DNA of 64,000 nt, taken from assembly GCF_900607235.1 (NCBI RefSeq), contig NZ_LR027849.1, positions 62,001-126,000 on the forward strand. The letters run 5' to 3'. How positions within the stretch are numbered: the first letter of the stretch is position 1; each line of letters starts with the position of its first letter. The DNA is from Olivibacter jilunii (GTDB lineage: Bacteria; Bacteroidota; Bacteroidia; Sphingobacteriales; Sphingobacteriaceae). A model generated the notes under the pieces. The model was not told where the DNA came from and ran no database searches. It saw only the letters and a program-made list of their open reading frames with translations. Of this stretch, positions 1-51,300 are shown piece after piece. The position numbers were made by a program, and so were the translations under genes.

Positions 1-3000
1 GGTAAATCCATTACCCGGATTTTCCTCTGAACGCCAGCGGTTATTCAACTCCTTTAATCCGTTAGCAGTTCCGGCGAAGTTGGCATAAAAACGGCGGCCT
101 AAATGCATAATTTCGTTACCTTGAACACCTTGTATCAAAAAGCTCAATTCGAGATTTTTGTAGCGAAAGGCATTGGTGATGCCGAAGACATAGTCGGGTT
201 GGGGATTGCCCAGAATGGTGCGGTCGTCTACACTTAGTATTCCGTCGCCATTAACATCTGCAAAACGGAATTGCCCCGGCTTTGAATCGGCAAAAGAGGC
301 ATTCTGATCAATTTCCTGCTGATTTTGGAAGATGCCAATTACCTCGTAGCCATAGAAATTTCCCATGGGCTTTCCGATTTCGGTAATATGACTATTGGTA
401 AGCTGATAATTGCTGAATAGGGGCTCGCCACTGGGGCCGAGGGCCAGTACTTTGTTCCGGTTAAAGGACAGGTTGATATCGGTTGTCCATTTAAGGGCTT
501 TTGTTAGATTTTGGCTGCGCAGATCAAATTCCCACCCTTGATTCTCTACACGACCGATATTTTGGGTAGCTATGGTGTAACCGGTGAGTGATGGCACGGG
601 TACATTCAATAACAGATCGGAGGTTATCTTGCGGTAATAATCAGCAACGAAGAATAAGCGCCCGCCAAATAATCCCAGCTCCAGGGCTAGATCCAGTTGC
701 TTGTTCTTTTCCCAACTCAGGTTGGCGTTGCTTACGGTATTGGGCCCTAGGCCATGGGCAATGGCGCCGCCACTGCTGCCGAATACGTAATTGCTATTGC
801 TGAGTAGGCCAATATGATCATAATTGCCAATAAAGTTGTTGCCCGTAAAACCATAACTGGCCCGTAGTTTCAGTTCATTGATGGCAGTAAGGTTGGCCAT
901 AAAATCCTCTTGAGAAAGACGCCATCCACCTGAAAACGAAGGGAAAACACCCCAACGGTTGTTGGCACCAAAACGCGAAGATCCGTCTGTTCGAAGGGTG
1001 GCTGTAAAGAGGTATTTGCCAGCGTAATCGTAATTGAGTCTGCCCAGATAGGAGAGTAAAGACCACTCCAGCGCAGTAGTGCTAGCGCCCGAAACCACTC
1101 CTGCGTTGATCGTCTGTACCAAGTCGTTCGGGAAATTCGTGGCGTTGATACTAGCCATATCAGACCGCACTTTTTGTGCAGTAAAGCCCGCTAAAGCATC
1201 AACATGGTGATCTCCGAAGAATTTGTTATAGCTGAGGGTATGTTCAATTAACCAATTATAAGATTCCTGTGAACTGTAAGAGGCACTCGGAATAACCGGT
1301 GCCGGATTACCGTCGCGTCCAACAGTGGATGGGTTGAAGGTGTTAGACTTCATGTGTTGCAAATCGGTGCCAATTAGCAATTTGTATTTCAACTCGTCCG
1401 TAAACGCGTATTCCGCAAAAGTTGTACCCAATAGTCTGAAATTAGTGCGGTGGTTCACCAGCTCGCGGGCAACTTTTACGGGGTTTTCCAGACTGCTGAA
1501 TCCATTTCCGAGGGAGATGCCGGAGCTATAGCTTCCATCCGGATTATAAACCGGTAAATTTGGTGGCATCATCAATGCGCTCAACACAACGGCGCCATCT
1601 GCAAAATGGCCTTCTGCCCTAACAGGGTTGCTTACCGTGTAAGTGGGGCTCAGGTTTAAACCTATCCGGAATTTTTTTGAGGTATTGGCATCGAGGTTTA
1701 CGCGAAAAGAATAGCGCTCAAAATCGGAGTTTAGGATGATGCCTTCTTGTTTAAAATAGCCCGCACTGGTCAGGTAATTGACCTGTTCGTTACCCCCGGA
1801 GAAAGTGAGCTGAATATTATGCATGGGTGCCGTACGGAATATTTCTTTCTGCCAGTTAGTGCCTTCTCCGAGTGTTTCAGGATGCTGAAGCTCAGGTAAA
1901 ATTTGATAGATGGCGCTGCGCTCCTCATTGGGTGCATTGATGTCGCCGCCCATATCTACCCAAGCGTTGTTGCGCGAATCGACGATATAGGAAGCAAATT
2001 CCTGCGCATTCATCAGATCCATATATTTGCTTACCTTTTGCAAACCGGTATAGGTGTCTAAGTCGATTTTCATTTTTCCCGACTTGCCGCTTTTGGTAGT
2101 AACGATAATGACCCCATTGCTGCCCCTGGAGCCATAGATAGCAGTTGCCGAGGCATCTTTTAACACTTCTATCGATTGTATATCGCTCGGGTTGATGGAG
2201 TTTAAGGGGTTGTTGCTCTGGTTATAATTTGCGGTGATGGGGAAACCGTCAATCACATATAATGGCTCATTGCCAGCTCCGATAGATCCGGTACCGCGCA
2301 CCTTTACCGACAGGCCGCCGCCTGGCGCACCGGTTGTTTGCGATACTTGTACCCCCGCCATTTTGCCGGTGATGGCGGCATCCAAACTGGGAGCGGGTAC
2401 ATCCTGAATATCTTGAGCACTAACCGAAACCACGGAGCCGGTGATGTTGGTGCGCTTTTGGGTACCGTAACCTACCACCACCACTTCATTTAAGTCGGCC
2501 ACCTGTTCCCGGAGTTGGATTCTGATTTCCCGCTCGGCGTTTGCTACGCGCTCTTCGGTGCCATGACCCATTAAGCTGAAAACAAGCACGCTTTCTGCCG
2601 AGGGCACTTTTATACTAAACCGGCCGGATGCATCCGTGCTGCTTTGCAAACGCTCATTCTTGATGCGCACCGTAACACCGGGCAAGGGGTCTCCTTCGGT
2701 ATTTACCACAGTGCCGCTGATGATTCGATCTTGTACTGCCGAAGCCGCTTTTTTTATAATAATATTCTTATCCAAAATCTCATAGCTCAAGCCTTGGTTG
2801 ACTAGGGTTTGCTCCATCGCTTCCTTGATGGATACACGTAGCAGTTGTAGGCTAACGGGCTTCGTGTTACGGAGCATTTCGGCATCATAAAAGATATGAT
2901 AATCACTCTGCTTTTGAATTTCTTTAAATATAGCGGTGATGCTGGCGTGTTGCTTATGAATACTGATCTGTTGGGCATAGCTCGCGGCGTTGACTTTCCA

Positions 3001-3105
3001 TAAGCTGATACACAGGAGGATGAATGCGAGCTTCATGACAAGTATGGGTTTGAATAAGGCGTTTCTTTCCCATCTGCGGGAAAAAGCAGTATTTTTTTTA
3101 TACAT
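1..3105 (-). CDS. SusC-like TonB-dependent outer-membrane receptor with STN domain (C-terminus beyond window)
   Basis: The frame is open from an ATG at 3105 to the left edge (1035 codons), and the end of the barrel lies outside the window. An N-terminal export signal (about residues 20-44) is followed by an STN domain (about 46-97), a carboxypeptidase-regulatory-like beta-sandwich (about 126-200), the SusC signature around NEVVVVGYGTQKR (205-217) and a plug domain containing LYVIDGFPI (281-289). The rest is beta-barrel, ending here in the conserved RSEENPGNGFT region. Family knowledge: such proteins import glycans or other large substrates across the outer membrane with a SusD partner. SusD would lie to the left and is not seen. 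The STN domain indicates signalling to the FecR/ECF sigma pair encoded immediately upstream. The substrate cannot be inferred from this fragment. Confidence 0.95.
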   Translation of the reverse strand, partial: MYKKNTAFSRRWERNALFKPILVMKLAFILLCISLWKVNAASYAQQISIHKQHASITAIFKEIQKQSDYHIFYDAEMLRNTKPVSLQLLRVSIKEAMEQTLVNQGLSYEILDKNIIIKKAASAVQDRIISGTVVNTEGDPLPGVTVRIKNERLQSSTDASGRFSIKVPSAESVLVFSLMGHGTEERVANAEREIRIQLREQVADLNEVVVVGYGTQKRTNITGSVVSVSAQDIQDVPAPSLDAAITGKMAGVQVSQTTGAPGGGLSVKVRGTGSIGAGNEPLYVIDGFPITANYNQSNNPLNSINPSDIQSIEVLKDASATAIYGSRGSNGVIIVTTKSGKSGKMKIDLDTYTGLQKVSKYMDLMNAQEFASYIVDSRNNAWVDMGGDINAPNEERSAIYQILPELQHPETLGEGTNWQKEIFRTAPMHNIQLTFSGGNEQVNYLTSAGYFKQEGIILNSDFERYSFRVNLDANTSKKFRIGLNLSPTYTVSNPVRAEGHFADGAVVLSALMMPPNLPVYNPDGSYSSGISLGNGFSSLENPVKVARELVNHRTNFRLLGTTFAEYAFTDELKYKLLIGTDLQHMKSNTFNPSTVGRDGNPAPVIPSASYSSQESYNWLIEHTLSYNKFFGDHHVDALAGFTAQKVRSDMASINATNFPNDLVQTINAGVVSGASTTALEWSLLSYLGRLNYDYAGKYLFTATLRTDGSSRFGANNRWGVFPSFSGGWRLSQEDFMANLTAINELKLRASYGFTGNNFIGNYDHIGLLSNSNYVFGSSGGAIAHGLGPNTVSNANLSWEKNKQLDLALELGLFGGRLFFVADYYRKITSDLLLNVPVPSLTGYTIATQNIGRVENQGWEFDLRSQNLTKALKWTTDINLSFNRNKVLALGPSGEPLFSNYQLTNSHITEIGKPMGNFYGYEVIGIFQNQQEIDQNASFADSKPGQFRFADVNGDGILSVDDRTILGNPQPDYVFGITNAFRYKNLELSFLIQGVQGNEIMHLGRRFYANFAGTANGLKELNNRWRSEENPGNGFT

Positions 3106-3216
3106 TTGATGGTGATTTAATGAATGATCCTACGTTTTTTAAATCCAGGCATTTGATGCTATCGGTCAGGAGCGGTTCCAAGCGTTCCTGACTTTATGTG
3201 TCAATGCCGCTTCTAG

Positions 3217-4398
3217 TTAGGGAGACACGGTAACCCTCCTTCCTGTTATGGTAAATTTAACGGATCCTGTTTGTTCTATCGCATGCAATAGCTGTCGGAA
3301 ATCAGTATACCTGGATAATGTTCCGCCAAAGGTTTTACCTTTTAGATTTCCTTCATATACGACTTCTATATCGTACCACCGGGCCAAGGTATTCATAACC
3401 TGTTTAATGTCATCTTGGTCAAAAACAAAATAACCCCTGGCCCAAGCCATGATTTCGTCTGGATCTACCTCCCGAATAACGATGGGGTGCCCAGTTTCGT
3501 TACTAAGTGCCTGTTGTCCGGGGCGCAGTATTTTGGACTGTACTTTCAGACTCCCGGTAAGTAAAGTAGTGACAACATAAGGATCTTCCTGATATGCGCT
3601 AACGTTGAATGCCGTTCCTAAGACGTGAATATCGGTGCCTTTTGCTTGCACAAGGAAAGCTTGGTTAGGATGTTTGGCGACATCAAAATAAGCTTCACCT
3701 TGGAGTTCCACTTTACGTTCCTGCCGACCGAAGGCGACGGGAAACGTAAGGGAAGAACCGGCATTGAGCTGTACGCGGGTACCATCCGGTAAGGTCAGCT
3801 TATAATCCATTCCGATAGGGGTGGTGATGGTATGTAAAGCGGGCGATGGATGAGCCTTTGTGTCTTGGTCTTCGGTATAAATCAGCTGGTTTTGATCTCT
3901 TTTTACATGTGTGCCGGATTGAAAGGTCTGAACGCCTTCGCTGAGTGCATTAACAGGGATTTGATGTCCGTCTGATAGGGTAAGCATAACTTCTCTTCTA
4001 TCCGATGTAAGTGTATCTTCTTCTTGAGTTAGCAACTTTTCTTTGGCCGCTTGAAGTGGAAGGGGGGTATATTGCCTAACTAATAAAGTGGCGAGACATA
4101 CCAGCGCTGCTATGCTCGCGGCAATCAACCAGACCTTTGGTTTTTTCCTCCGGGCTTGTGTGTTAAGCTGTGGCGAAGTCATTATCCCGTGTAAGACACG
4201 CTCTGCATCCAATTTGATCGGGAGCTGCTGATTTGCTTGCTGCCAAGCTTTGTCAAATAAGTCCAACAGTTGCTCGTTTAATTGCGCTGTATCTGCTTGT
4301 TGTATATAGTTTACGAGCTCCTCGAATTCGGATTCGCTGATTTGCTCATTCATATAAGCCTTTAAAAGCGTAATAAATCTTTCTTCTTTGAAGCGCAT
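3217..4398 (-). CDS. FecR-family anti-sigma factor
   Basis: This 393-residue inner-membrane regulator has a cytoplasmic N-terminal part, a single membrane helix around residues 88-107 (WLIAASIAALVCLATLLV), a FecR domain around 190-285 (GMDYKLTLPDGTRVQLNAGS, GEAYFDVAKHP) and a C-terminal DUF4974-type domain (about 325-391) that contacts the receptor STN domain. It lies between the ECF sigma gene (68 bp upstream) and the SusC-like receptor (111 bp downstream), all on the minus strand. This is the classic trans-envelope cassette: substrate-loaded receptor to FecR to sigma factor, inducing receptor transcription. Length and domain order are normal. Confidence 0.95.
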   Translation of the reverse strand: MRFKEERFITLLKAYMNEQISESEFEELVNYIQQADTAQLNEQLLDLFDKAWQQANQQLPIKLDAERVLHGIMTSPQLNTQARRKKPKVWLIAASIAALVCLATLLVRQYTPLPLQAAKEKLLTQEEDTLTSDRREVMLTLSDGHQIPVNALSEGVQTFQSGTHVKRDQNQLIYTEDQDTKAHPSPALHTITTPIGMDYKLTLPDGTRVQLNAGSSLTFPVAFGRQERKVELQGEAYFDVAKHPNQAFLVQAKGTDIHVLGTAFNVSAYQEDPYVVTTLLTGSLKVQSKILRPGQQALSNETGHPIVIREVDPDEIMAWARGYFVFDQDDIKQVMNTLARWYDIEVVYEGNLKGKTFGGTLSRYTDFRQLLHAIEQTGSVKFTITGRRVTVSP

Positions 4399-4466
4399 CG
4401 TTATTGGTTAGCAGGGGACAGTTTTATCCCTTTTATATATAGATACGGATAAGGAAGGGGATCGAA

Positions 4467-5063
4467 CTAGTGTAAAAGGAAAAAAAATAAAAAAAAGATA
4501 GTGATATCATTTTTTGAAATAAATATCTTCATGGTTTTTAAAGCACTTACGAGGTGATTGCGTACGGTATTGCGGGATATTTTGAGATTTTTGGCGATTT
4601 CGTCATACGACAAACCCTCTAAGCGATTAAGCTGAAAAACAAGCCGTTGCTGATGGGGTAATTGTTTCATTCCAGCATCAATACATTGCCGCAAATCGTG
4701 TAGCAATAGTTGCTCTTCGGTGTGGTTGCTTACATCGTTCACCACGTATTGCAAATGCTCTTTCAATTTGTTTTCTGTAATTACTTTGCGAAAAGCATCG
4801 ATCGATAAACGTCGGGCGATAAGGTATAAGTAGGGATATAGTGGCTGCTGGCTGTCTAATTTATGCCGGTTCGCCCATAGCTTGATAAAGGTTTCCTGCA
4901 GGATTTCCTCGCTATGGCTTTGGTCTTTTAACAAGGCATAGATGAAACGATAAACAGCAGGATGTAGTTGCTCGTACAGTACCCTAAACGCGCGTTTATC
5001 TCCCGATTGGAGCGCAGTAATCAAAAGAGATTCATCCTTTTCTACGACTGATACTGGTTTCAT
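4467..5063 (-). CDS. ECF-type RNA polymerase sigma factor
   Basis: This 198-residue sigma-70 family protein of the Bacteroidetes ECF type has sigma region 2 at about residues 26-92 (YRFIYALLKDQSHSEEILQE, TFIKLWAN) and region 4 at about 130-185 with a helix-turn-helix (LEGLSYDEIAKNLKISRNTV). The C-terminus ends in a short hydrophobic tail (TIFFLFFFLLH), which is somewhat unusual for a soluble sigma factor. It is the first gene of the sigma/FecR/SusC cassette and should transcribe the receptor genes when released by the FecR protein. The start is an ATG with no convincing upstream alternative. Confidence 0.95.
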   Translation of the reverse strand: MKPVSVVEKDESLLITALQSGDKRAFRVLYEQLHPAVYRFIYALLKDQSHSEEILQETFIKLWANRHKLDSQQPLYPYLYLIARRLSIDAFRKVITENKLKEHLQYVVNDVSNHTEEQLLLHDLRQCIDAGMKQLPHQQRLVFQLNRLEGLSYDEIAKNLKISRNTVRNHLVSALKTMKIFISKNDITIFFLFFFLLH

Positions 5064-5088
5064 CTATTTATTTTTAGCTTTTCATTTG

Positions 5089-5385
5089 TCAGATGGAGCC
5101 TTTGATGATTGCTTTAATCATGCCGGGTTCATATTGGTTATGAGTGCTAGGTCTACCGTACAAACGTATAGAATTTAATTGGTATTTGCAATCCTTTGCA
5201 CAGCCTGTCAATAAAATGACCATATGGGCATTGATTGGCCATTTGCAGTAACCGCTGGACGTTAAATTCAATTTAAGTATGCTCTAAAATAAAATTCGTC
5301 TTCCTGCTTTCAGCTATTTTTATATAGAACCTATATTCTATTGCACGGAAAATTCTATTTCCTATGTAAGGTTGAAATTTCAAAG
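5089..5385 (-). pseudogene. Decayed, internally deleted copy of the 272-residue gene at 10329-11147 with its leader
   Basis: Positions 5272-5382 are about 80% identical to the leader at 11161-11271, which sits directly upstream of the 272-residue gene. Immediately after the leader in the minus-strand direction (about 5237-5259) the sequence can be read as VQRLLQMAN, matching VQELLQMAN inside that protein. About 650 bp of intervening coding sequence present in the intact copy is missing here. A 60-codon open frame (5271 to 5089) runs through the region in a different frame and resembles nothing. The simplest reading is an old duplication followed by deletion. I compared the two sites by eye. 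Confidence 0.6.
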
Positions 5386-5498
5386 GAATTAGCTCCACGC
5401 TTACGCAGTTGGATTTTGGAAGCAATAGGGAAAATTGAGAAGGAGGATGGAAGTTAAGATCGCTGTCAATTCATTTGGCATTGGTTTTCATATATCCA

Positions 5499-6047
5499 TT
5501 ATTCTTTGAACTGTTGACTGAATTTTTCGACGGCTGCTTCAAGTGCACGATTGGCTTCTATCAAAATGGCAGGCTCTATTTCTTTAGTGGTACTATAATC
5601 TTTGAACAAGGCCTGCTGTGAAGCGAACTCCAGATAGGCCATCACTTCTTCGCAATCCCAGAAAAAATCATAGATAAAAGCGACACCGGTATCTGCTGCA
5701 TCTTGATAGGTTGCCAATTGTTTCAGCAGAGAGAGCATCGGTGATATCTCTGTATAATTCTCACTAAAAAAAACAACGATGAATGTCCATCTTTCCGTAT
5801 TTTTGTCGTAATGCTCAACACCCCCGAAATCTCTTCCATTAAGCAATTGGTCGAAGACGGCACGGTTGTTCTGAACGCGATAATAGGGGAGGTCCGATAA
5901 AGGTTGTTTGCTATACATTCTTCGGCTGTCCCACCATTTCGACCAGTTTTCATCGATGCTTTGCGGCATGGGTTTCTCTTGAAAAAAGTGTTGAAGTTTT
6001 TCTTCTTTGATCTGGATGTTGATATAAAGCGAAGAGTATTCTGACAT
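5499..6047 (-). CDS. Uncharacterised 182-residue protein
   Basis: This single clean open frame starts at an ATG and has normal composition, with no signal peptide or membrane segment. It is rich in aromatic and acidic residues (ENWSKWWDSRRMYS, ERWTFIVVFFSENYTEISPM, FIYDFFWDCEEVMAYLEFA). A mixed alpha/beta cytoplasmic protein is likely, but I do not recognise the family. It is isolated between the decayed repeat copy and a non-coding stretch with a terminator-like hairpin. The call rests on length, codon regularity and absence of a competing frame. Confidence 0.65.
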   Translation of the reverse strand: MSEYSSLYINIQIKEEKLQHFFQEKPMPQSIDENWSKWWDSRRMYSKQPLSDLPYYRVQNNRAVFDQLLNGRDFGGVEHYDKNTERWTFIVVFFSENYTEISPMLSLLKQLATYQDAADTGVAFIYDFFWDCEEVMAYLEFASQQALFKDYSTTKEIEPAILIEANRALEAAVEKFSQQFKE

Positions 6048-6161
6048 GATCTAAAAATTAAATTATTCCGAATTTAAAGAAAAAATGGTTTACTCCAATG
6101 AACAACATCGAAGTAGAAACTGCAGCGCTTAACTTTGCTGAGCTCGCGCTGCATACCCTCA

Positions 6162-6307
6162 TATTTTTGTGTTACTTAAATTCAGGTAAATTTATACGAC
6201 TGATTATATCATATAACGATTCCGTTGATTTTGCCATACGCTATTCAACCCAAATATCTAAATTTAATTTGGTGATTGCTAGCCGTGTCCTGTACGGCTA
6301 GCTTTTT
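6162..6307 (+). ncRNA. Candidate short transcript: TAnnTTTG box followed by an intrinsic terminator
   Basis: TATTTTTG at 6162-6169 fits the Bacteroidetes -7 consensus TAnnTTTG. About 110 bp downstream, 6278-6302 forms a perfect 9-bp hairpin (GCTAGCCGT / ACGGCTAGC, 7-nt loop) followed by TTTTT at 6303-6307, a textbook plus-strand terminator. No recognised plus-strand gene precedes it. The only plus-strand frame, 67 codons at 6098-6301, runs into the hairpin and looks non-coding. A small RNA of about 130 nt, or the tail of an unannotated transcript, would explain the terminator. Confidence 0.3.
6278..6307 (+). terminator. Intrinsic terminator with no obvious upstream gene
   Basis: The arms 6278-6286 and 6294-6302 are perfectly complementary (9 bp, 7-nt loop), and five T residues follow on the plus strand. 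The minus-strand side lacks a T tract, so the signal works best for plus-strand transcription. Confidence 0.65.
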
Positions 6308-6327
6308 GGGAAGGTCGTTTGACTCAT

Positions 6328-6579
6328 TTACCTTTTTTTTTCGATAAAGCCCTCTAACGCAAAAGGCTTCCACATAATAATAGTTGGAACTGTTAAGAAT
6401 TCGCATAATTCTTCGCCAGTATATAAAAAAGTGGGTGTTAGCTGGGTGATGCCCTCGTACTGCCCGCAACCGAACAACAACTGTTCGATATCGAACAGCC
6501 TTGGTAAGGAATGGCCTACCAGTGTGCTTTGCAGCGTTTTCTTTACAGATGGCAGATTAATTGTAGTAGCATGGTTCAA
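6328..6579 (-). CDS. Possible 83-residue protein, doubtful
   Basis: An ATG-started open frame ends 11 bp before the divergently read permease gene. The product has no signal peptide or membrane helix and resembles no family I know. Against coding: another minus-strand frame covers part of the same DNA, and the stretch contains a perfect 18-bp palindrome. It could be a fragment of an older gene or chance. I list it because it is the only candidate in the interval 6048-6590. Confidence 0.25.
   Translation of the reverse strand: MNHATTINLPSVKKTLQSTLVGHSLPRLFDIEQLLFGCGQYEGITQLTPTFLYTGEELCEFLTVPTIIMWKPFALEGFIEKKR
6481..6498. promoter_or_regulatory. Perfect 18-bp palindrome upstream of the MacB-type permease
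   Basis: CTGTTCGATATCGAACAG reads the same on both strands. It lies 93 bp before the permease ATG, where a dimeric repressor could bind. It also falls inside the doubtful 83-codon frame, so a coincidental origin is possible. Confidence 0.35.
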
Positions 6580-6590
6580 TCTGTTTCATT

Positions 6591-8954
6591 ATGATCAAGC
6601 ATTACTTTAAGACCGCTTTACGTAACCTTTGGAGAACCCGTAGCTTTAGCTTTCTCAATATCTTCGGACTCGCTGTAGGCATTGCCACGGCATCGCTGAT
6701 TTTTTTATGGATTGAGGATGAAGCCGGGTACGATAAGGACTTCCCGAACAATGAAAATATATACATAACGAAATCGAAACAACCTTCGGGTGAAGGGGTG
6801 CGGGTTTTTGATGCCGTTTCAGGCCTTTTAAGTGACGCGATGAAAGCTGAAATACCAGGTGTTAAATACAGTGCACGTGCAGATTGGGGCAGATCTTTTC
6901 TGTTTACGAAAGACGAACGGTCGATTTACCAGAACGGACAAATTGTAGACCCTGAATTTATGGACATTTTCTCGCTTGAATTTGTGGAAGGGAACAGATC
7001 GAGTGCATTGGTAAGGCCTGATCAATTGGTTATCACACAATCTGCAGCTAATCGCATCTTTGGACAAGGGTCGGCGCTTGGAAAGACTGTACGCGTGAAT
7101 AACGATAAGCGTTTTGTGGTGTCTGGTGTGGTTAAAGATCTTCCGAGGAATAGCAGCATTCAGTTTGATTGGCTTATCTCATTTGAAGAGTTTGAAAAAG
7201 ATAATGCGTGGGTACGTGATTGGGGCAATTCGGTTGTGATGACTTATGTACAACTGGAACCAGCTGCCAGCTTAGCAAACGTGAACAAAAGGCTTTTTGA
7301 TTTGGTAAAACGTCAACCGGGCAATGAGCAAGCAAACATTCGAAACTTTCTGTACCCGATGGAGCGCTGGCGGCTCTACAATAATTTTGATAAAAATGGG
7401 AATGAACAGGATGGCCGTATGAAATACATTCGCTTGTTCAGCATCATTGCCTGGGTTATATTACTCATCGCCTGTATCAATTTCACGAATCTCACAACCG
7501 CCAGATCTGAAAAGAGGGCGAAAGAAGTAGGTATGCGTAAGGTCGCAGGAGCTCGCAGGGCTTCGCTGATCGGCCAATTTTTAGGGGAATCGCTTATCCT
7601 GGCTACGATATCGGCTTTGCTTGCTATGGTGTTTATATACAGTTCGATTGGTGCGTTTAACGCCCTGGTTGGAAAAGAATTAGTGATTAATTTATTCAAA
7701 CCAGCCCATCAGCTTTTTTTGATAAGCATTGTGCTGATTTGTGGTTTATTGTCCGGGATCTATCCTGCCTTTTATCTCGCCTCTTTTAATCCGATAAGCA
7801 CCTTAAAAGGGGCCAAGCAAAGGATCGGATCGGTGGGATTTATTCGCCGTGGTTTGGTAGTGCTCCAGTATGCAGCATCTGTCACGCTCATTATTTGCAC
7901 CGTGATCATTTTCCAGCAGATTCGGTATGCTAAGGGGCGCGACTTGGGTTTTGACCTTAGTCAGGTGCTGACAGTTCCTTTGCGAGGGGAGGCCGTGAAA
8001 CACTCGGATCTCATCAAGGAACAGCTGCTAGCAACAGGCCGTGTGGAAAGTGTAGGAGCGGGTGCTGGAAGTATACTGAATTTTGGCGTGAGGACCGACC
8101 TGGACTGGGCCGGGAAGGATCCCAATCAACAGATAGATATATTTTATTCTTGGGCGGATGAGGGCATTATTCCGGCCATGGGATTGGAATTAGTGGATGG
8201 CCGTAACTTTCACCCGAATATACAGGGAGATAGCAGTAGTTTCCTGGTCAACGAAACTTTTGCAAAGCTGATCAGCGCGGACGGAAAAGTTGCTGGCCGG
8301 CAGGTTTTCTGGGAAGATGAACCGTTCACCATTGTAGGGGTGGTAAAAGACTTTGTTTATAATGATGTTTATAGCCCAACCGCACCGGTATTTTTCCGTC
8401 CTTATACGGGTAACGGAGGGATGCTGAGTATTAAAATTAAGGCAGGGGCAGACCTCGCTAAAACAGTTGAACAGATCGAACAGGTCATGAAGGCCAATAA
8501 CAAGGAATTTCCATTTGAATATCAGTTTCTGGATGAAGCTTTTAATGAAAAGTTTAAATCCGAAATGCTCCTCCAGAAACTGGGCAGTATATTTGCGGTC
8601 TTGTCTATCATTATCTCTTGCCTCGGTTTGTTTGGACTTGCCGCCTTCACAGCCGAAAGGCGTACGAAAGAGCTGGGTATCCGAAAGGTATTGGGCGCTT
8701 CCATTTCTTCATTGATCAGTTTACTTAACCGAGAGTTTGTTATACTTATTCTGATTTCCTGTCTGGTATCATTTCCTCTGGCGTGGTGGGTAATGAACGA
8801 CTGGCTAGATAACTTTGCGTATCGTACTGATTTACAGTGGTGGGTGTTTGCTTTCACAGGATTAGGGGCTTTGATACTTGCACTCTTTACCGTGAGTTCA
8901 CAGGCGATAAAGACTGCTCTTACGAATCCGACAAAGAGCCTTCGAGAAGAGTGA
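6591..8954 (+). CDS. MacB/FtsX-type ABC transporter permease (orphan)
   Basis: This 787-residue inner-membrane protein is the large Bacteroidetes permease type: two fused halves, each with a MacB-like periplasmic core and an FtsX domain. The first membrane helix is near residues 20-43 (FSFLNIFGLAVGIATASLIF). The first FtsX domain is around 280-400 (EKRAKEVGMRKVAGARR) and the second around 660-780 (ERRTKELGIRKVLGAS). No ATPase or periplasmic adaptor gene is adjacent, so it probably works with an ATPase encoded elsewhere. Family knowledge: relatives export peptides, lipoproteins or drugs, or transmit stress signals mechanically. The start is the ATG in MIKHYFKTALRNLWR, which matches family starts. 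Confidence 0.9.
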   Translation: MIKHYFKTALRNLWRTRSFSFLNIFGLAVGIATASLIFLWIEDEAGYDKDFPNNENIYITKSKQPSGEGVRVFDAVSGLLSDAMKAEIPGVKYSARADWGRSFLFTKDERSIYQNGQIVDPEFMDIFSLEFVEGNRSSALVRPDQLVITQSAANRIFGQGSALGKTVRVNNDKRFVVSGVVKDLPRNSSIQFDWLISFEEFEKDNAWVRDWGNSVVMTYVQLEPAASLANVNKRLFDLVKRQPGNEQANIRNFLYPMERWRLYNNFDKNGNEQDGRMKYIRLFSIIAWVILLIACINFTNLTTARSEKRAKEVGMRKVAGARRASLIGQFLGESLILATISALLAMVFIYSSIGAFNALVGKELVINLFKPAHQLFLISIVLICGLLSGIYPAFYLASFNPISTLKGAKQRIGSVGFIRRGLVVLQYAASVTLIICTVIIFQQIRYAKGRDLGFDLSQVLTVPLRGEAVKHSDLIKEQLLATGRVESVGAGAGSILNFGVRTDLDWAGKDPNQQIDIFYSWADEGIIPAMGLELVDGRNFHPNIQGDSSSFLVNETFAKLISADGKVAGRQVFWEDEPFTIVGVVKDFVYNDVYSPTAPVFFRPYTGNGGMLSIKIKAGADLAKTVEQIEQVMKANNKEFPFEYQFLDEAFNEKFKSEMLLQKLGSIFAVLSIIISCLGLFGLAAFTAERRTKELGIRKVLGASISSLISLLNREFVILILISCLVSFPLAWWVMNDWLDNFAYRTDLQWWVFAFTGLGALILALFTVSSQAIKTALTNPTKSLREE

Positions 8955-8968
8955 CAACGTGGAGTCCA

Positions 8969-8992
8969 CCAAACCCTTTCTTAAGCGTTTGG
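8969..8992. terminator. Weak stem-loop between convergent genes
   Basis: CCAAAC at 8969-8974 pairs with GTTTGG at 8987-8992, with possible extension through one bulge, followed by an AT-rich run. It lies between the permease stop and the end of the convergent ATPase gene and may terminate the permease transcript. The short stem makes this a modest call. Confidence 0.35.
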
Positions 8993-9003
8993 GTGATTAT
9001 TTA

Positions 9004-10188
9004 TTAAAACAATGTGCTAATGTTGAGCTGCAGAAATTCCTGCCAAGGTAAACTGCTGTCACCAACTAACAGAACCTGGTCAGGCTTTTGCGTTTTTTGA
9101 AATACTTGCATGCCGGATGTAGTTTGTGCATGACCGCTTTTTATCTCTATGCCGATTACCTTACCCCGGTATTCCAAAACAAAATCGACTTCATAATTTC
9201 CCTCCCGCCAATAATATAATTGGAAACCAGTACTAAATGAACTGTTGATTAGGTAGGCACCGATTGCAGATTCAACCATTCTTCCCCAGGAATCGGGCTG
9301 CGATCGTACTTCTTGAAATGTTTCCACCCTTTGGGCACTGATAAGCGCAGTGTTATGCACCTGAAATTTTGGACTGGACGATCGCTTGCGTATCAGTTTA
9401 TTGTCAAACTTCTCTAATCCATTTAGCAGACCTGCTGTATTTAGAAGGCCGAGATAATGAGCCAGTGTGGTTGTATTTCCAGCGTCTAACAGTTGTCCCA
9501 TTATTTTCGTGTAGGATAGTATTTGTCCGGAATAATTGCAACCGATCTCAAAAAGTCTTTTCATGAGTGCCGGTTTGTCTACTCGAGTAAGCATTAATAT
9601 GTCTTTAGAGATACTGGTTTCGATCAGGGACCCAACAACGTACTGTTTCCACCTCTCTTCATCTGAAATTAGACTTGCTGATCCTGGATATCCCCCAAAC
9701 CATACATAATCATCCACCGTCCAGTCAAAGGCCTGTTGCATCTCGGAGAATGACCAGTGCCCCATATAAGTGGTTTCAAATCTCCCAGCCAAGGATTCGG
9801 TTAAACCCTGTTGAAGGAGTAAGCGGGACGATCCAAGTAAAATGACTTTTAAGTTGGTTTCTGTTCGGGTGTCTGTATCCCAAAGGAGCTTTACAGTTTC
9901 ACTCCAATTATTTATTTTTTGTATTTCATCGATGATCAAGAGAAATTCATTGCTCTCCTTTTGCTTCATTTGTATACGCGCAGTATCCCATTGCGCTGAA
10001 AGCCAGCTGCCATCAGAAGCAGGTACAGCATCGGCCGAAACAAATAAGTAAGGAATGCTTATTTTTTTTGTCAATTGGGTTATCAAGGTGGTTTTGCCCA
10101 CTTGGCGAGGTCCCATTAAAATTTGAATGAACTTTCTTTCTTCGTTTATTCTGTTTGTAAGTGTCTGTAAATAAGGTCTTTCAAACAT
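9004..10188 (-). CDS. AAA-family ATPase with DUF4143 domain
   Basis: An N-terminal ATPase domain shows a Walker A motif (GPRQVGKTTLI), Walker B (FLLIIDEIQKI) and a sensor-type segment (ILLGSSRLLLQQGLTESLAG). The C-terminal DUF4143 domain carries EVDFVLEYRGKVIGIEIKSG, a PD-(D/E)xK-nuclease-like pattern (D, then EIK). The protein is probably cytoplasmic and its physiological role is unknown in the family. I prefer the ATG at 10188 (MFERPYLQTLTNRIN) over a TTG at 10206, because MFERP is a common family start and the TTG lies inside an operator-like palindrome. Two 20-bp palindromes sit directly upstream and probably control it. Confidence 0.88.
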   Translation of the reverse strand: MFERPYLQTLTNRINEERKFIQILMGPRQVGKTTLITQLTKKISIPYLFVSADAVPASDGSWLSAQWDTARIQMKQKESNEFLLIIDEIQKINNWSETVKLLWDTDTRTETNLKVILLGSSRLLLQQGLTESLAGRFETTYMGHWSFSEMQQAFDWTVDDYVWFGGYPGSASLISDEERWKQYVVGSLIETSISKDILMLTRVDKPALMKRLFEIGCNYSGQILSYTKIMGQLLDAGNTTTLAHYLGLLNTAGLLNGLEKFDNKLIRKRSSSPKFQVHNTALISAQRVETFQEVRSQPDSWGRMVESAIGAYLINSSFSTGFQLYYWREGNYEVDFVLEYRGKVIGIEIKSGHAQTTSGMQVFQKTQKPDQVLLVGDSSLPWQEFLQLNISTLF

Positions 10189-10198
10189 ATTTATAAAA

Positions 10199-10240
10199 TT
10201 ACTCAATACGTTGAGTAAAATTACTCAATATATTGAGTAA
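10199..10240. promoter_or_regulatory. Two tandem 20-bp palindromes just upstream of the ATPase start
   Basis: TTACTCAATATATTGAGTAA (10221-10240) is a perfect palindrome. TTACTCAATACGTTGAGTAA (10199-10218) is the same site with two changed central bases. They are spaced 22 bp centre to centre, about two helical turns, ending 11 bp before the ATG at 10188. This arrangement fits a cooperative repressor operator that also masks translation initiation or promoter sequence. Confidence 0.6.
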
Positions 10241-10328
10241 TTACAAATAATCCATTATTTAGCTTTCTCCAAAGCTAATTTTTTTATCGGCTAGGTTTCC
10301 GAGGATGCTAAATCAAGGAACAGTTATC

Positions 10329-11147
10329 TTATTGCCATTTAAGATTTTTCATCACGCCATATCTTCTACAGGTACTTCCCCAGGCTATATTGCCCAATTG
10401 TGCAGCTACAAGAACCTCTCGCATTAATTCGTCCTTTATCTCGTAAGATGCTAGCAAATAGTCATTGGCCATTTGCAATAACTCTTGGACGTTATGTTCA
10501 ATATCGTTTTTTTCCTTCTGTAGTAAAACGAGGGCATTATATTGCTCGTTCTCTGCTTTTTCTTTAATATAAGAGTGTAGGTCATTAAAAATAAGAATGT
10601 TAAAAACGGCTTTTCTGAAATAATGATCGTGTTCGGTAGGGAAATTCAAATTTAATGCATCGTACAGCATGATAAAGAAAATATGCACAGCGATGTTTTT
10701 AAGACGTTCATTTAAATAATCGTCCATACTGCTAAAATGCTTCTCCTGGTTACCGTCAAATTCCGTAGGTAAAAAGTCAAGCAAATCTTTATGTACAAGT
10801 TCATAGTTGAAGGGGCTCAGCGTTTCCTGTAACAGCTTTTCATAGTAATAAACGATGTCATACTTGTTGCGGTCATATTCGTCCGTTGGAGCCGTGGCCC
10901 GCCTACTATGAATATCCATCGCATGATGAACAAAATCCTTGTACCTTACCTTTGCATCTTCTACGTAGAACAGATAAGTGACACTAAAACAGGCCAGGTA
11001 TAAATGTTTTTCACTGGTTAATATTTTAGGGAGTATGTAGGGAGCCCAGAGCATTTGTTCTTTTATGGTGTTAAAGTCGTAACGCCAGTCGATTCCCTTA
11101 TTCAATGCTATGTTTGCTGTTTTATGGATCACATCTTCTACTATCAT
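10329..11147 (-). CDS. Uncharacterised 272-residue alpha-helical protein
   Basis: This clean ATG-started frame encodes a predicted mostly helical, soluble protein rich in Tyr, His and charged residues (FYVEDAKVRYKDFVHHAMDI, NKYDIVYYYEKLLQE). The C-terminus is CRRYGVMKNLKWQ. I do not recognise the family, and no signal peptide is seen. Its leader (11161-11271) is repeated at 5272-5382 beside a decayed fragment of the same gene, so the gene has been duplicated locally at least once and one copy has degraded. It stands alone between the AAA ATPase and the start of the EPS locus. Confidence 0.7.
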   Translation of the reverse strand: MIVEDVIHKTANIALNKGIDWRYDFNTIKEQMLWAPYILPKILTSEKHLYLACFSVTYLFYVEDAKVRYKDFVHHAMDIHSRRATAPTDEYDRNKYDIVYYYEKLLQETLSPFNYELVHKDLLDFLPTEFDGNQEKHFSSMDDYLNERLKNIAVHIFFIMLYDALNLNFPTEHDHYFRKAVFNILIFNDLHSYIKEKAENEQYNALVLLQKEKNDIEHNVQELLQMANDYLLASYEIKDELMREVLVAAQLGNIAWGSTCRRYGVMKNLKWQ

Positions 11148-11160
11148 AGGAGTCCTAAAT

Positions 11161-11271
11161 TTTAAGTGCGCTCTAAAATAAAATTCGTGTACCTGCTTTC
11201 CGCTATTTTTACACAGAACTTATATTCTACTACACGGAAAGTTTCGGTCTCTTTATAAGATTGAGATTTCG
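11161..11271 (-). repeat. Conserved leader copy (partner of 5272-5382)
   Basis: Both copies begin TTTAAGT, share an identical 19-base core (GCTCTAAAATAAAATTCGT) and remain alignable without gaps for about 110 bp at roughly 80% identity. In this copy the repeat abuts the start of the 272-residue gene. Conservation of a non-coding leader suggests a promoter or structured 5' untranslated region, or the edge of a duplicated mobile segment. Confidence 0.7.
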
Positions 11272-11597
11272 TTTAAAAAAAGAAATTTTTTAGTCTATTT
11301 TATTCGTTATCCTTTGTTCTAAAACGAACTCATGTTACTTCGTGGTTTTGCCGCTTTGGCATGATGTTTTTTTTAATTTCATTCTCGTTACCCGGACGCA
11401 AAAGAGGAGTTTATGTCGGGCCTCTTCGCATGAAACGCTTCTCTTTCAACTGTGAACAATTTTTACTTTTATGTTTATAATTGAGTATTGATGAGTATAT
11501 TTGAGATGAATCATCGAACTTTGTGTGACATAACTGTGCAGTGAGCGTTGGGAGCATAAATAAAGAGGTCGACGGTCATTGTTCCACGCAATCAGCT
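11272..11597 (+). promoter_or_regulatory. Non-coding upstream region of the EPS locus with TATATTTG element
   Basis: I find no credible gene in this AT-rich interval. TATATTTG at 11496-11503 fits the TAnnTTTG promoter element, about 95 bp before the preferred ATG of the first EPS glycosyltransferase. The identical octamer occurs upstream of two other plus-strand EPS transcription starts (14558 and 27740). A -33 element at canonical spacing is not obvious. Confidence 0.4.
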
Positions 11598-12806
11598 ATG
11601 AAATTAAAAGGCAAAATTATTGTGATATTAAGTTATATGCGGTTTGATGGATTGGCGTCCACGAATCTAACCATAGCTAAATATCTGAGCAACGAAAATG
11701 CCGTTTATTATGTAGATCATCCCTACACATGGCGAGATTATTTTTTTTCGGACAAAGCTAATAGCTCTTTTAAGTGCAGAAAGCCGTTCTTCTCGTGGTT
11801 CTCAAAGAAAGTTTTAATGCTGGAAAAATTGAGGCTTATTATTCCCTCTCCGGTACTTCCTATAAACTGGTTGCCGGAAGGACCTTTGTACCGTTTTTTT
11901 CTTAAGCTTAATGAAAAGATGATTGCCCGGAAGATACGAGCTGTTTTGGAGAAGGACGGAGTAACGAATTATATTTTTATCAATTCCTGGAATTTCCATT
12001 ATCCGAATATAGGTAGATACCTGAAGGCCGATTTGTATGTTTATCATTGCGTTGATCCTTTGATAACCCCCTATGATAAAAAGCATGGCGAAACTTCAGA
12101 AAAGATATTGGTAACAGAAAGTGATGTAGTGATCTGTACGAGTAGGGCATTGGAACGTGAAAAGAAACTGCTGAACCGACATACATTTTTTATTCCGAAT
12201 GCGGCTGATTTAGTGCTTTATTATCAAAAAAATAGAGGAAAAATAGTGAAGCATCCTGCAGTTAACACAATTCCTTATCCTAGGGTAGGGTATATCGGCG
12301 CGGTGGAGCGGCGCTTAGATTTTGATCTGCTATATAAGGTGGCGACCAAAAATAGCGATATGCAGTTCGTTTTTGTAGGACCGGTGAGTCATGATGTGGT
12401 GCCAAAATGGTTTTTTGGTCAACCCAATGTGCATGTGATACCGGCTATCCGTTACGAAGAGGTGCCGGCATGTATAGCGAGCTTTGATATTTGCATTATA
12501 CCCTTCAAAAAGGATGAGGTAAGTGATACGATTTTTCCGCTTAAACTTTTCGAATACTTAGGTATGGGCAAGCCGGTTGTGTCTACTGATTTTAATCTCG
12601 ACTTGCAAGAGTTTACAGGCAACGTAGTACGTTTTGCCGCTTGCGACATCGGTTTTAGTGATCAGCTTAAAGAGGCATTGATAAATCCTCAGAAAGGGCT
12701 GGAAAAACGGCTACATATTGCAGCGCAGAATACATGGCAGCAACGGGTGAGTCAATTTGGTGACTTAGTTTGTGAATGCTTAAATGATAAAAAGATGTCA
12801 ATTTAA
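11598..12806 (+). CDS. Glycosyltransferase, GT4/GT-B type
   Basis: The product probably transfers a sugar during EPS repeat-unit assembly on the cytoplasmic face. It has a GT-B architecture. The N-terminal half begins MKLKGKIIVILSYMRFDG. The C-terminal half has the donor-binding pattern around FPLKLFEYLGMGKPVVST, where the Glu of LFEYL is the family's nucleotide-sugar contact. I chose the ATG at 11598 rather than a GTG at 11541, because the first 19 residues after the GTG look non-conserved and the beta-strand begins right after the ATG. It is homologous to the glycosyltransferase at 20593-21810 (same GYIGAVERRLDFDLL / GYVGSLQSSRLDMELL region). First gene of the EPS locus. Sugar specificity is not predictable. 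Confidence 0.88.
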   Translation: MKLKGKIIVILSYMRFDGLASTNLTIAKYLSNENAVYYVDHPYTWRDYFFSDKANSSFKCRKPFFSWFSKKVLMLEKLRLIIPSPVLPINWLPEGPLYRFFLKLNEKMIARKIRAVLEKDGVTNYIFINSWNFHYPNIGRYLKADLYVYHCVDPLITPYDKKHGETSEKILVTESDVVICTSRALEREKKLLNRHTFFIPNAADLVLYYQKNRGKIVKHPAVNTIPYPRVGYIGAVERRLDFDLLYKVATKNSDMQFVFVGPVSHDVVPKWFFGQPNVHVIPAIRYEEVPACIASFDICIIPFKKDEVSDTIFPLKLFEYLGMGKPVVSTDFNLDLQEFTGNVVRFAACDIGFSDQLKEALINPQKGLEKRLHIAAQNTWQQRVSQFGDLVCECLNDKKMSI

Positions 12807-12834
12807 TTTTCATGTGTATATTAACGGGCTTCAT

Positions 12835-13938
12835 ATGGTGCATCAGATAGCAATAGACAAAATTAAAATCCTTTACCTGGATGACGAACTGCACAGCTTA
12901 CATGCTTTTAAAGCAATGTTGCGGGAAGCCTATGAAGTGTTTATTACCACAGAGGAAGAGCGTGCCTATGAGCTGTTGGCCGAACATAAGGATATACGGA
13001 TTGTTTTTTCCGATCAGTCCATGCCAACACATTCGGGAACCGATTTCTTTGAAAAAATAAGTCATTTACACCCATTGCCGATACGAATCTTGGTTACAGG
13101 ATACAGTGAGGATGAACAACACATTATTGACGCAATTAACAGAGGTAATATTTTTCGGTACCTGAAAAAGCCATGGAGCATAGATATGCTGCATAGGGTG
13201 ATAGGGGAAGCCAATAGAAGCTATGTAACGACCTCCTTGCTCCAACAAAAGAATAGCGAGTTAACCGAGGCCTATGCTGAACTAGATAAATTTGCTTATA
13301 GTGTCAGTCATGACATGCGAGGTCCTTTGGCAGGCATTATGTCGGCCATGCAGTTGTTACGTATGATTGATGATCCGGCCGAGCGTGAGGAGATTGTCGA
13401 GATAGCTATTAATTCTGCTGAGCGATTGGATCGTTATATTATTAATCTGCATGATTATTATAGTGTGAGACGTGGCCAATTAACCATCGCTGAAATAAAT
13501 TTATTGGCGCTGAAGCAAGAGCTAGAGCAGCTCTATGAGGCAATAGCCAATGCTAAGCAAATCCAATTTAGTATAAGTCTACAAAACGAAGAGCCCTTCC
13601 GGAATGACGAAATGGCCATCAGGTTAATCCTCACAAATCTTATTTCAAACGCCTTCAAATATCAGAAAAAGTCTTCTGGACCGAAGTATGTGGAAGTAGC
13701 GATTGAAGTGACTAAAGGAACTGCAGTCTTTTTCGTCCGGGATAATGGTATCGGTATAAAAGAATATTATCTTGATGAGATATTCACGTTGTTTTTTAGA
13801 GCATCTTTGGATGAAGCCGGTAGCGGATTAGGACTTTATAATGTTAAAAGCGTGGTGGAGCAATTGGGAGGGCAGATTAGTGTCGAATCGACAGTTGACG
13901 TTGGGTCGACTTTCAAGGTGGTACTCCCAAACAAATAA
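12835..13938 (+). CDS. Receiver-histidine kinase protein (REC first, then HisKA-HATPase), soluble
   Basis: An N-terminal receiver domain (KIKILYLDDE, acceptor Asp in IVFSDQSMP, Lys in YLKKPW) precedes a HisKA domain with the phospho-His in SVSHDMRGPLAG and an HATPase domain (NLISNAFKY N box, DNGIGI G1, GSGLGL G2). There is no membrane segment, so it senses internally or receives phosphate through its own REC domain. I prefer the ATG at 12835 (MVHQIAIDKIKILY). An ATG at 12784 would overlap the preceding gene by 23 bp and add a segment without receiver character. It lies directly after an EPS glycosyltransferase and before a stand-alone receiver, suggesting a local phosphorelay. Confidence 0.9.
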   Translation: MVHQIAIDKIKILYLDDELHSLHAFKAMLREAYEVFITTEEERAYELLAEHKDIRIVFSDQSMPTHSGTDFFEKISHLHPLPIRILVTGYSEDEQHIIDAINRGNIFRYLKKPWSIDMLHRVIGEANRSYVTTSLLQQKNSELTEAYAELDKFAYSVSHDMRGPLAGIMSAMQLLRMIDDPAEREEIVEIAINSAERLDRYIINLHDYYSVRRGQLTIAEINLLALKQELEQLYEAIANAKQIQFSISLQNEEPFRNDEMAIRLILTNLISNAFKYQKKSSGPKYVEVAIEVTKGTAVFFVRDNGIGIKEYYLDEIFTLFFRASLDEAGSGLGLYNVKSVVEQLGGQISVESTVDVGSTFKVVLPNK

Positions 13939-36191: not shown

Positions 36192-36596
36192 AGAGGAATG
36201 ATACGGGGTTAGCATAACGACACAACGAATGCGATCGCCGACTTAAGTATGGAGAAGTAAATACGGTAAGGTACAGCTTTTCGGCACAGGTATTTACCTG
36301 CCGAAAAAAACTATGTCATTGATGGAAATGCACAGGTGCTTGTTGGTATCGATAAGCTGGCAGAATTAAAGTTTGCAGATTACACGACGAAGTTAACCGA
36401 GAAACTACAGTGATCATTTTCTTTGCAGCATGTGTAATGCCTTATCTATTATAGCGTTGCTCTACTTCAAATTGGTTGTGACACCTTCTTGGATGCTGGG
36501 TTCGGATGGTATTATTTTAAGTTGTTTCAAATGGTGTTTTCGCTGCCAAAGTTGCGAGCTGTCTTGAAAAAACAGCTCGCAATAATACACCTTATC
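36192..36596. other. Intergenic region with a possible gene remnant and a strong hairpin
   Basis: A 47-codon stretch (36270-36413, plus strand) without a start reads like the C-terminal end of a protein (NYVIDGNAQVLVGIDKLAEL) and is closed by TGA. I cannot name the family, and chance is possible. Apart from the hairpin at 36552-36582 nothing else is seen. Confidence 0.3.
36552..36582 (-). terminator. Strong stem-loop downstream of the RND operon
   Basis: TTGCGAGCTGT (36552-36562) pairs perfectly with ACAGCTCGCAA (36572-36582), an 11-bp stem with a 9-nt loop. It lies 14 bp past the adaptor stop codon on the minus strand. The T tract is weak, so it may act as a transcript-stabilising hairpin as much as a terminator. 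Confidence 0.55.
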
Positions 36597-48326: not shown

Positions 48327-51300
48327 CTAGGCTGTTACTTCGCATGTAAACGTGACTGCGGGGCCTTCGTTAACACCAGCCTTCACGCTAAACCTGCCGA
48401 TTGCATAGTAGGCATAAACACTGTAGCCTCCATAAAATTTTTCAAAACGTGCTATCCCATTTTGATCGGTTTGTACCATCGTTGGATATGCGCCGGAAGG
48501 ATCTACCTGTACGGCCATACCAGTAGGCTGTTCAAACGGACCGAGGCTTACATATGCATTTGCTATTGGCCGATCATGTTCGTCTGTTACAAGAACAACC
48601 ATTGGTGTAAATTTAGCGGATATAGGACCCCCACCACCCGCCGTACGGGCAAGCTTTTGGTCATTACCACTTATAATGGTGAGTTTCGCGTTTGGCAAAG
48701 GAGGTAGCGGTGGTGTGGGAAGAACTGTTAGTGAATATGTTTGTGCCTGCCCAAAACCAGCAGCGATAATGGTAAAATCACCTTGGTCATAGTAACATAT
48801 GACCGAATTGCCCGACAATTTTTCAAGTCGTGCAAATCCACTGCTATCGGTCAGGATTTTTACTGTCTTCGCTGCGCCACCCGGGTCAATTTGTACCGCC
48901 ATTGATTTTGGAAATTCACCTACAGAAAAAGTTACTTCTACACCTGGCACACCCACTCCTTTATCGTCCCGCACGGCAATGATTAATGGCTGGAAAAAGG
49001 CCTGACCTCCTGGAATGTGTGTCAGATTTGTACGTGGCACTGCTTGGTTATTGCCAGCTACGATACTGAGGCTAGCGGGGTTACCGGCGGCAGGCGTAAT
49101 AATGGGTTCTGAAAGTGCGGACCAAGGGCCGGGTGCCCCTGGATAGGGGAGCGTTAGGTAAACAACGGCCCCTGTCATTTTACTGCCGTAATGGCCCCTC
49201 CAGAACTTGGTGTCTTTGCCACTATGTTCAAAATATACCGAGCGAACGCCCTTTCCATAATCCGTAAATTGATGTGCTATGCGCTCCCATTTGTAGACCC
49301 AATCGGGTGTACTCGGTGCGATAACCTCCCCGCTGTCAAATCTGGCTATAGCTTGATTGTTAGTATCTCTTAGCTCGATATACATGCGATAAATGCCATT
49401 GCAATCGCTTCTGGAAGAAATCCAATCGGCTACTGTAATCAAAGGTGCTTCATCAAGTTGCGCTGCGGTAAAACCATTGGCTATTAGGTCGATGGTTTGC
49501 GCCTTTTTACACCATAGATAAGAAGTAACGAAGTTGTGTTGGCTTGTAGTACCGGGGCAGCTTTTAGCCGGTCCATCTTCAATGGCCCAACCGTTGCCAC
49601 CATTTTCCAGTATGTTCCAACCGCTGAAGTCGGCCGAGGCATCTCCGTTTTGTAAGAGTTGTGGCGGCGCAGGATTGAGCGCTCGGATACGGGCAATGTA
49701 GGCCGTATCTGCCTTAAGGTCGCTCAATAATACCTTTGCCCCTTGTTCATCATATTGAATAGGAGGCTGTGGATTCAATGGCATGCCATTGTTTGGATCA
49801 ACAAGCTGCGCCTCATAATGGGTAGCAGCTAGCCATTGATCTTGGGGGATAATTTTCAGCGTATCTCCCGCAAGGGATAGTAAAGGCGCTTGAGGTGTTT
49901 CAATCGGGTTATAGTGGATCACATCTGAAAGTGTCCAAATACTATCGATGAAATTGCTTGCAGTAGCGTGTGTACGTACTTGGATATCCTTCCCTGCCAC
50001 CGAAGTGTCTAAGGTATAAGAAGCGGTATAACCGATGTTATCTTCTTTTACCATTTGTGTCGCCTCGTTTGAAGGTGTGCCATCTATAACCAGCTGTGCC
50101 CAATAAGCAGTTGCATTTGCTACTTCTTGGCTTAAGGTAGCGCTGAGTTTATTGGCGGTAAGGCTAAGGCTAGCTGGTTCTGTTGCTGCTAGCCTAGCTA
50201 CCGTATTAGGCGCAGGTTGCCAAGCGCTTGGAGCGTAACCCTCTTTTATGGCGCGAGCTTGTACCGTAAAAGTGTTGCCGGTTTCATCAGGTATGGTAAA
50301 GTTTGCTTGGTATTTCGGCGGATCGCTTTCTGCGAGTTGCATGGGTATGATCTCACCCAGGGGTGTAGCATCTGCCAGCAGTTGGGCTTCGTAGCCCGTG
50401 GCCTCTTTGGAAAGTTGCGCCAGCTCCGCCTGAATTTCATTGCCGTCTTTTATTAGGAGTGCTTGCAAGCTAGGTGCGGGTAAATTGATAATAGTTACTG
50501 GATCACTTTCTCCAGGTAAACTGTTGAGTTTGTTAGCATCGCCCAAAATTTGTGCCCAAGCTCGGTAAATTCCATTAGGCAAGGAAGGAAGACCGTCTGC
50601 AGGCCAGCTACAGCTATTGCTTGTTCCGCTAACAGTTCGCCTAGCTAAAACAGTGGGAGTATCCACTTCTTGGACTTCTACAAGGATTTGTACGCTTGGC
50701 TCGGTTTGGGCCCAACTAACGCGCAGTTCTTGCGTGGTTGTGATCTTTGCCCCGCCGGGTCCGTCTTCTTCTGCTGTCGCGGAGATGAGCCAGCTTAACT
50801 GAACCTCTTGCGGTGTGGCTTGCCGCTCGACCATATTACTGCTGGCTGAAAGCCCGCTGTTGATTGTTTGCGCATCAGCAAGGGTGAGCACACGGGCGCT
50901 AAAGGGGCCGATATCGCCATCAAAGAGGTCTGGCAAGATTTCCCAGTGATTTTGATCCGTTGCAAAGGAACTGGTATCTGCCAGCTCTTCGCTGCTGTAT
51001 AGATTTGCCGTGTAACCTTGATTCGGATTGACTTGCTCCCAATCGGTAACAACTTTACCGTCTACAATTGACAGGGTAGGAGCAGAAGGCATGATCGCCC
51101 GATTAATGTTTTCAGGTGAAGAAGTGGGGTTACCGTCTAGTATCTGGGCGTTGCCGCAAGCTTTGACCTGCACGGTGAGCGAAGTTCCGCTTCCTTGTAA
51201 CGAAGTAAGCGAAATATCAGACTGGAGGGTGTTTGGAGCGATGTTGTCTACATAACAAACTGAAGCTTCTTTTTCGTCTACCACCCGTACCGCATAGGTG

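Follow-up and report, generated by a model that had tools for sequence, protein, structure and literature searches.

A probable decayed copy of a terpene-synthase-like gene and its upstream region in Olivibacter jilunii

Introduction

Relics of pseudogenes arise in bacteria by duplication and deletion. Class I terpene synthases are characterized by an aspartate-rich motif, DDxx(x)D/E, by the motif ND-x-x-S-x-x-x-E and by a C-terminal RY pair. Chitinophaga belongs, as does Olivibacter, to the Bacteroidota. The locus analyzed here combines a relic and a gene of the terpene synthase type. It lies in a window of 64,000 nucleotides (the whole stretch of DNA studied) from Olivibacter jilunii, contig NZ_LR027849.1, positions 62,001 to 126,000, in which an intact gene (copy A) and its remnant (copy B) were compared. 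Copy B resembles the relics of bacterial pseudogenes in being composed of an upstream region and a coding fragment, in the lack of any gene-length frame and in a neutral-like drift; nothing unusual was noted in this comparison and, apart from the naming of the gene, the case is an ordinary one. As to the gene, terpene synthases of Bacteroidota include the enzyme of Chitinophaga pinensis named 18-hydroxydolabella-3,7-diene synthase in PMC5588592, and its likeness to the gene of the window is one of enzyme name and phylum only. No publication joining Olivibacter with a terpene synthase was found in the literature collection searched.

Results

Identity of the 272-residue gene

The intact gene of copy A (10329..11147, minus strand) codes for a protein of 272 residues which the original prediction had left among the genes of unknown function. 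This protein matches PF19086.5 (terpene synthase family 2, C-terminal metal binding) with 39 bits for a cut-off of 23.7 (E 9.5e-10; 39.4 bits in the genome search), the match spanning only positions 79-195 of the 199 positions of the profile. Eight other PF19086 proteins, taken from this genome and from Olivibacter domesticus, were combined into a profile, which aligned with the window protein over residues 5-264 with a probability of 90%. Compared with these eight proteins, the window protein is 18-21% identical and 37-62 residues shorter, all starts being taken as the first Met. Alignment with the enzymes of the genus highlighted an NSE/DTE-type motif of the NSE type, NDLHSYIKE (residues 188-196; 10560..10586, minus strand), and a C-terminal RY pair (residues 262-263) included in RRY (residues 261-263; 10359..10367, minus strand). 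Both motifs occur in the same order as in the PF19086 enzymes of the genus, and ND-x-x-S is present at the aligned place in seven of the eight other proteins, L041 being the one without it. The aspartate-rich motif could not be recognized: the aligned DD corresponds to E63-D64-A-K-V-R, where no acidic residue follows ED. As the strict motif is also lacking in four of the eight homologues (L034, L035, L037 and L039, the last one likewise with ED), its absence weighs little on the question of homology.

The best hit of a PDB sequence search was the TvTS cyclase domain (E 0.0061), and the only NCBIfam matches, all far below the cut-off, were to terpene cyclases. The single-sequence AlphaFold model was all-helical with a mean pLDDT of 39.1, which is too poor to be used. 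The gene is thus classed here as a divergent terpene-synthase homologue of the PF19086 family rather than as an active synthase.

Distribution of the gene in Olivibacter and beyond

The nearest relative of the window genome (6.70 Mb) in which the gene was detected is O. domesticus DSM 18733, of the same genus; it was the one other genome with a homologue of the 272-residue protein among 60 relatives, the window genome included. There the gene is partial: the match extends from about codon 186 as far as the end of the gene and is interrupted by a 2-base indel and by one stop in the matched frame. No match was found in the three other Olivibacter genomes searched, nor, besides the protein itself, among 400 genomes of the order, a sample from which O. 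domesticus was evidently absent. Among 395 genomes of the phylum, the sole additional match was a stretch of 62 residues with seven stops (E 4.2e-4), which was taken as chance. These single-protein searches speak of close relatives only, since they left the remaining PF19086 genes of both genomes unreported: two further ones are present in the window genome and six in O. domesticus, and none was detected at E 0.01 in the other three genomes of the genus.

Two of the O. domesticus genes, L033 and L035 (G004:C7:215312-216909), lie on one strand, their matched domains separated by about 450 bp, and are only 22.5% identical. The genus does thus carry neighbouring terpene-synthase genes.

A leader present in two copies

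The leader of copy A (11161..11271, minus strand) is separated from the start codon by 13 bases and, by its position, presumably holds the promoter and the 5'-untranslated region of this gene. The leader of copy B (5272..5382, minus strand) was identified by its pairwise match to the first one, by a shuffle test and by a repeat search. Positions 11161-11270 and 5272-5381 are aligned on the same strand and without gap, with 89 identities over 110 bases (E 4e-25 within the window), a score that was reached by none of 500 shuffles of two-base units, and the leader is the longest direct repeat detected in 3000-13000. These results are in agreement with the 110-bp leader of about 80% identity that had been announced in two places, and the coordinates proposed at the time were right to within a few bases, with the exception of the lower limit 5089, which only marks where an ORF of a different frame, called mechanically from a TTG start, comes to its end. 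Beyond the leader the homology is lost, the stretch 5383-5498 of copy B being no more similar to the upstream side of copy A than shuffled DNA (180 of 500 shuffles reached the score).

The same prediction saw in the leader a possible mobile unit and in the gene a member of a locally expanding, dispersed family, and the two leaders do have different neighbouring genes, as would be expected from a repeat inserting upstream of genes. In the genome-wide count that it had called for, only two copies were found in 6.70 Mb, the next-best match being of 26 bp (E 0.135), and neither a mobile element nor a dispersed repeat could be recognized. The absence of copies beyond these two is one of the two outcomes that the prediction itself had named as speaking against it. 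In 59 other genomes, where at most 14 candidates per genome were scored, only two short pieces of 32 bp and 23 bp were detected. No match was obtained at E 1e-5 with 72,556 plasmid and 50,697 phage records, and no inverted repeat of at least 20 nt bounds the leader. As the second leader moreover carries codons of the same gene, insertion of a mobile or dispersed repeat is very improbable, and neither the expanding family nor the mobile unit found support.

The leader was also absent upstream of the eight other PF19086 genes of the genus (searched from 500 bp before the first Met to 100 bp after it; 31 to 197 of 200 shuffles reached the scores; a ninth entry of the scan, L038, is the window gene itself). 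A comparison of the leader and the copy B stretch with O. domesticus gave a single match below E 0.1, to the gene remnant of this species (43 bp). The best of the other matches in the genus, in G002 (27 bp, E 0.011) and in G003 (26 bp, E 0.04), were taken as chance.

A single frame, of 35 codons, is open in both leaders on their own strand and ends at a common stop, so that the leader might be regarded as what is left, at the 3' end, of a lost protein-coding gene. The differences in this frame favour second codon positions (5/11/6 on positions 1/2/3; deviation from even, p 0.24) and copy A has a stop in this frame just before the homology, which makes a coding origin highly improbable. On the opposite strand, a frame with a shared TAA in which 11 of the 22 differences fall on third positions (p 0.24) was treated as chance.

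A gene fragment fused to the second leader

The fragment at 5234..5272 (minus strand), fused to the leader of copy B, is a relic of codons 216-228. It is identical to 10464-10502 at 33 of 39 bases (E 2e-8 in the pairwise comparison of 500 x 1300 bases), a score reached by none of 500 shuffles, and it reads IEFNVQRLLQMAN where residues 216-228 of the intact gene read IEHNVQELLQMAN. The VQxLLQMAN codons expected beside this leader at 5259-5237 were confirmed, their position being corrected to 5260-5234. The six differences are distributed 3/2/1 on codon positions 1/2/3, and the stops that bound the frame of the relic leave only some 40 codons open. The other 259 codons of the gene are unrecognizable in copy B: the stretch 5064-5221 gave shuffle-like scores with the 3' part of the gene (reached by 133 of 500 shuffles) as well as with all of copy A (370 of 500). 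Copy B has retained homology to the gene and to its flank and has lost the coding capacity, as in a pseudogene relic. Leader and codon fragment follow each other in the order of the gene, and each of them scores beyond 500 of 500 shuffles, so that an alignment no better than chance, the result that would have spoken against the relationship, was found for neither. With both flanks at shuffle level, these alignments bear out the earlier statement that one copy is intact and the other deleted.

Between the leader and codon 216, 658 bp of copy A are absent in copy B. The junction in copy A displays ATT at both edges of the missing stretch, the strict overlap being one base. A deletion by short homology is possible; the case for it is weakened by the fact that copy B has one A fewer than would remain after a deletion from ATT to ATT. 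Since the 3' codons are missing too, at least two events are needed.

Divergence and selection

The divergence between the two leaders (22/111) equals that of the third codon positions when the gene of copy A is compared with its O. domesticus remnant (17/88; p = 1.0 by Fisher's test). No constraint on the leader need be invoked from this neutral proxy, and by these counts drift alone can explain the 81% identity. The same equality suggests that the duplication is roughly as old as the split from O. domesticus. Within the leader, the proximal 83 bases differ less than the distal 28 (11/83 and 11/28; p 0.005, the split being chosen post hoc), which could reflect a constraint; compared with the third positions, 11/83 is not significantly lower (p 0.31). 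The changes between copy A and the O. domesticus remnant fall 5/5/17 on the three codon positions (p 0.005), a protein-like pattern suggesting that the gene was under selection before it was broken in that species. At the 39 codon bases shared by the three sequences, copy B and O. domesticus agree against copy A at two sites, copies A and B agree at one and four are unique to copy B; copy B may thus predate the species split or be a separate acquisition. As the break in copy B is not at the same place as that in the O. domesticus remnant, the gene would have been lost or truncated more than once in the genus.

Regulatory potential of the leader

An ECF sigma-factor gene (4467..5063, minus strand; PF04542/PF08281) starts 209 bp downstream of the copy B leader on the same strand, and no terminator-like site was found in 5000-5560. 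An imperfect dyad, AGAA-N6-TTCT, read from the sequence as a candidate operator, is kept in both leaders (5326..5339 in copy B and 11215..11228 in copy A, minus strand). Together with the lower divergence of the proximal part under the post hoc split, these features are compatible with a leader selected in both places as a regulatory element, be it a promoter/operator or a structured RNA, that of copy B driving the sigma-factor and anti-sigma genes. Against this, the divergence of the leader is not below the neutral proxy. No sigma-70-type promoter was detected on that strand in 5000-5560 by a scan that is blind to other promoter types. The RNA folds of the leaders are unremarkable (z -1.08 and -0.88), not clearly better than those of shuffles, and no Rfam match was obtained in 4900-11700 at E up to 1. 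An outer helix seen by eye in both folds was rejected as covariation because its arms pair in different registers. A selected element in both places is thus unlikely, and the regulatory unit of the original prediction keeps its plausibility by position only, its conservation not exceeding that of the neutral proxy.

The leader of the relic could also have been captured as promoter/operator of the ECF sigma-factor/anti-sigma (FecI/FecR-like) genes. Such a capture is conceivable since the sigma-factor gene lies on the same strand at 209 bp and no terminator-like site was found between them. The only hint in its favour is that the proximal 83 bases diverge less, and we regard this capture as quite improbable.

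Neighbouring genes and other observations

In G003, a 71% relative of the glycosyltransferase next to copy A lies at a locus where neither the leader nor a terpene gene was found in about 10.8 kb upstream. FecR matches in three other genomes were 34-47% identical. For the 182-aa protein encoded next to copy B, O. domesticus has a 49% relative; the ORF listing of the 3.5-kb locus of this relative covered lengths of 90 aa or more and would miss a relic.

Separate from the locus, the window contains a second relic at 36216-36410, whose DNA is about 76% identical, over 198 columns, to that of a lipoprotein-like gene of 233 residues in O. domesticus (L021 1935-2636, minus strand), which is located about 5.4 kb from the terpene-synthase remnant of that species; 36216-36410 is not covered by any ORF of at least 180 aa. 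L021 124-339 and 1765-1891, a few kb from the same remnant, are similar to a gene of the window at 6591-8954 coding for a permease which we take to be of the FtsX type, and this similarity suggests that the two stretches are gene debris. At 10194-10242, two tandem and near-identical 22-bp units form palindromes (TTACTCAATA...TTGAGTAA) around the start of an AAA/DUF4143 ATPase gene (9004-10206, minus strand), of which they could be a candidate autoregulatory operator. Finally, an open frame of 3515 residues (48327-58874) contains two internal stretches, presumably Hint-like, which begin with CFTAGTEVIL... and CFIAGTQVLL... and each end with HNKG.

Discussion

The two blocks of copy B are best explained by an old duplication of a terpene-synthase-like gene together with its upstream region, followed by deletions that left copy B as a roughly neutral relic, a reading to which we assign a probability of about 0.85. 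In this Olivibacter lineage, two copies of the gene, each with at least 124 bp of upstream region, would once have stood about 6 kb apart. Copy A would have stayed intact. In copy B, a stretch corresponding to about 658 bp of copy A would have disappeared, which began directly behind the leader, comprised the start codon and ended with codon 215. Everything 3' of codon 228 would have been lost or overwritten in a further event, the remainder drifting as a relic in a roughly neutral way. The absence of the missing parts by deletion and the order of these events are probable reconstructions, and the copying may have been a duplication in place or a second acquisition. The duplicated intermediate is likewise a reconstruction, as none of the genomes was found to carry both copies in intact form.

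Duplication followed by decay explains the repeat without the need for a new element. The gene formerly listed as unknown can now be named as a divergent terpene-synthase homologue, of which the searches of other genomes returned no close relative in intact form. If the promoter capture were true, the sigma and anti-sigma genes would be under a control that once governed the gene of copy B, and the terpene-synthase-like gene of copy A may still share this control. The locus would then illustrate, on a small scale, how a pseudogene can leave a functional regulatory region in place.
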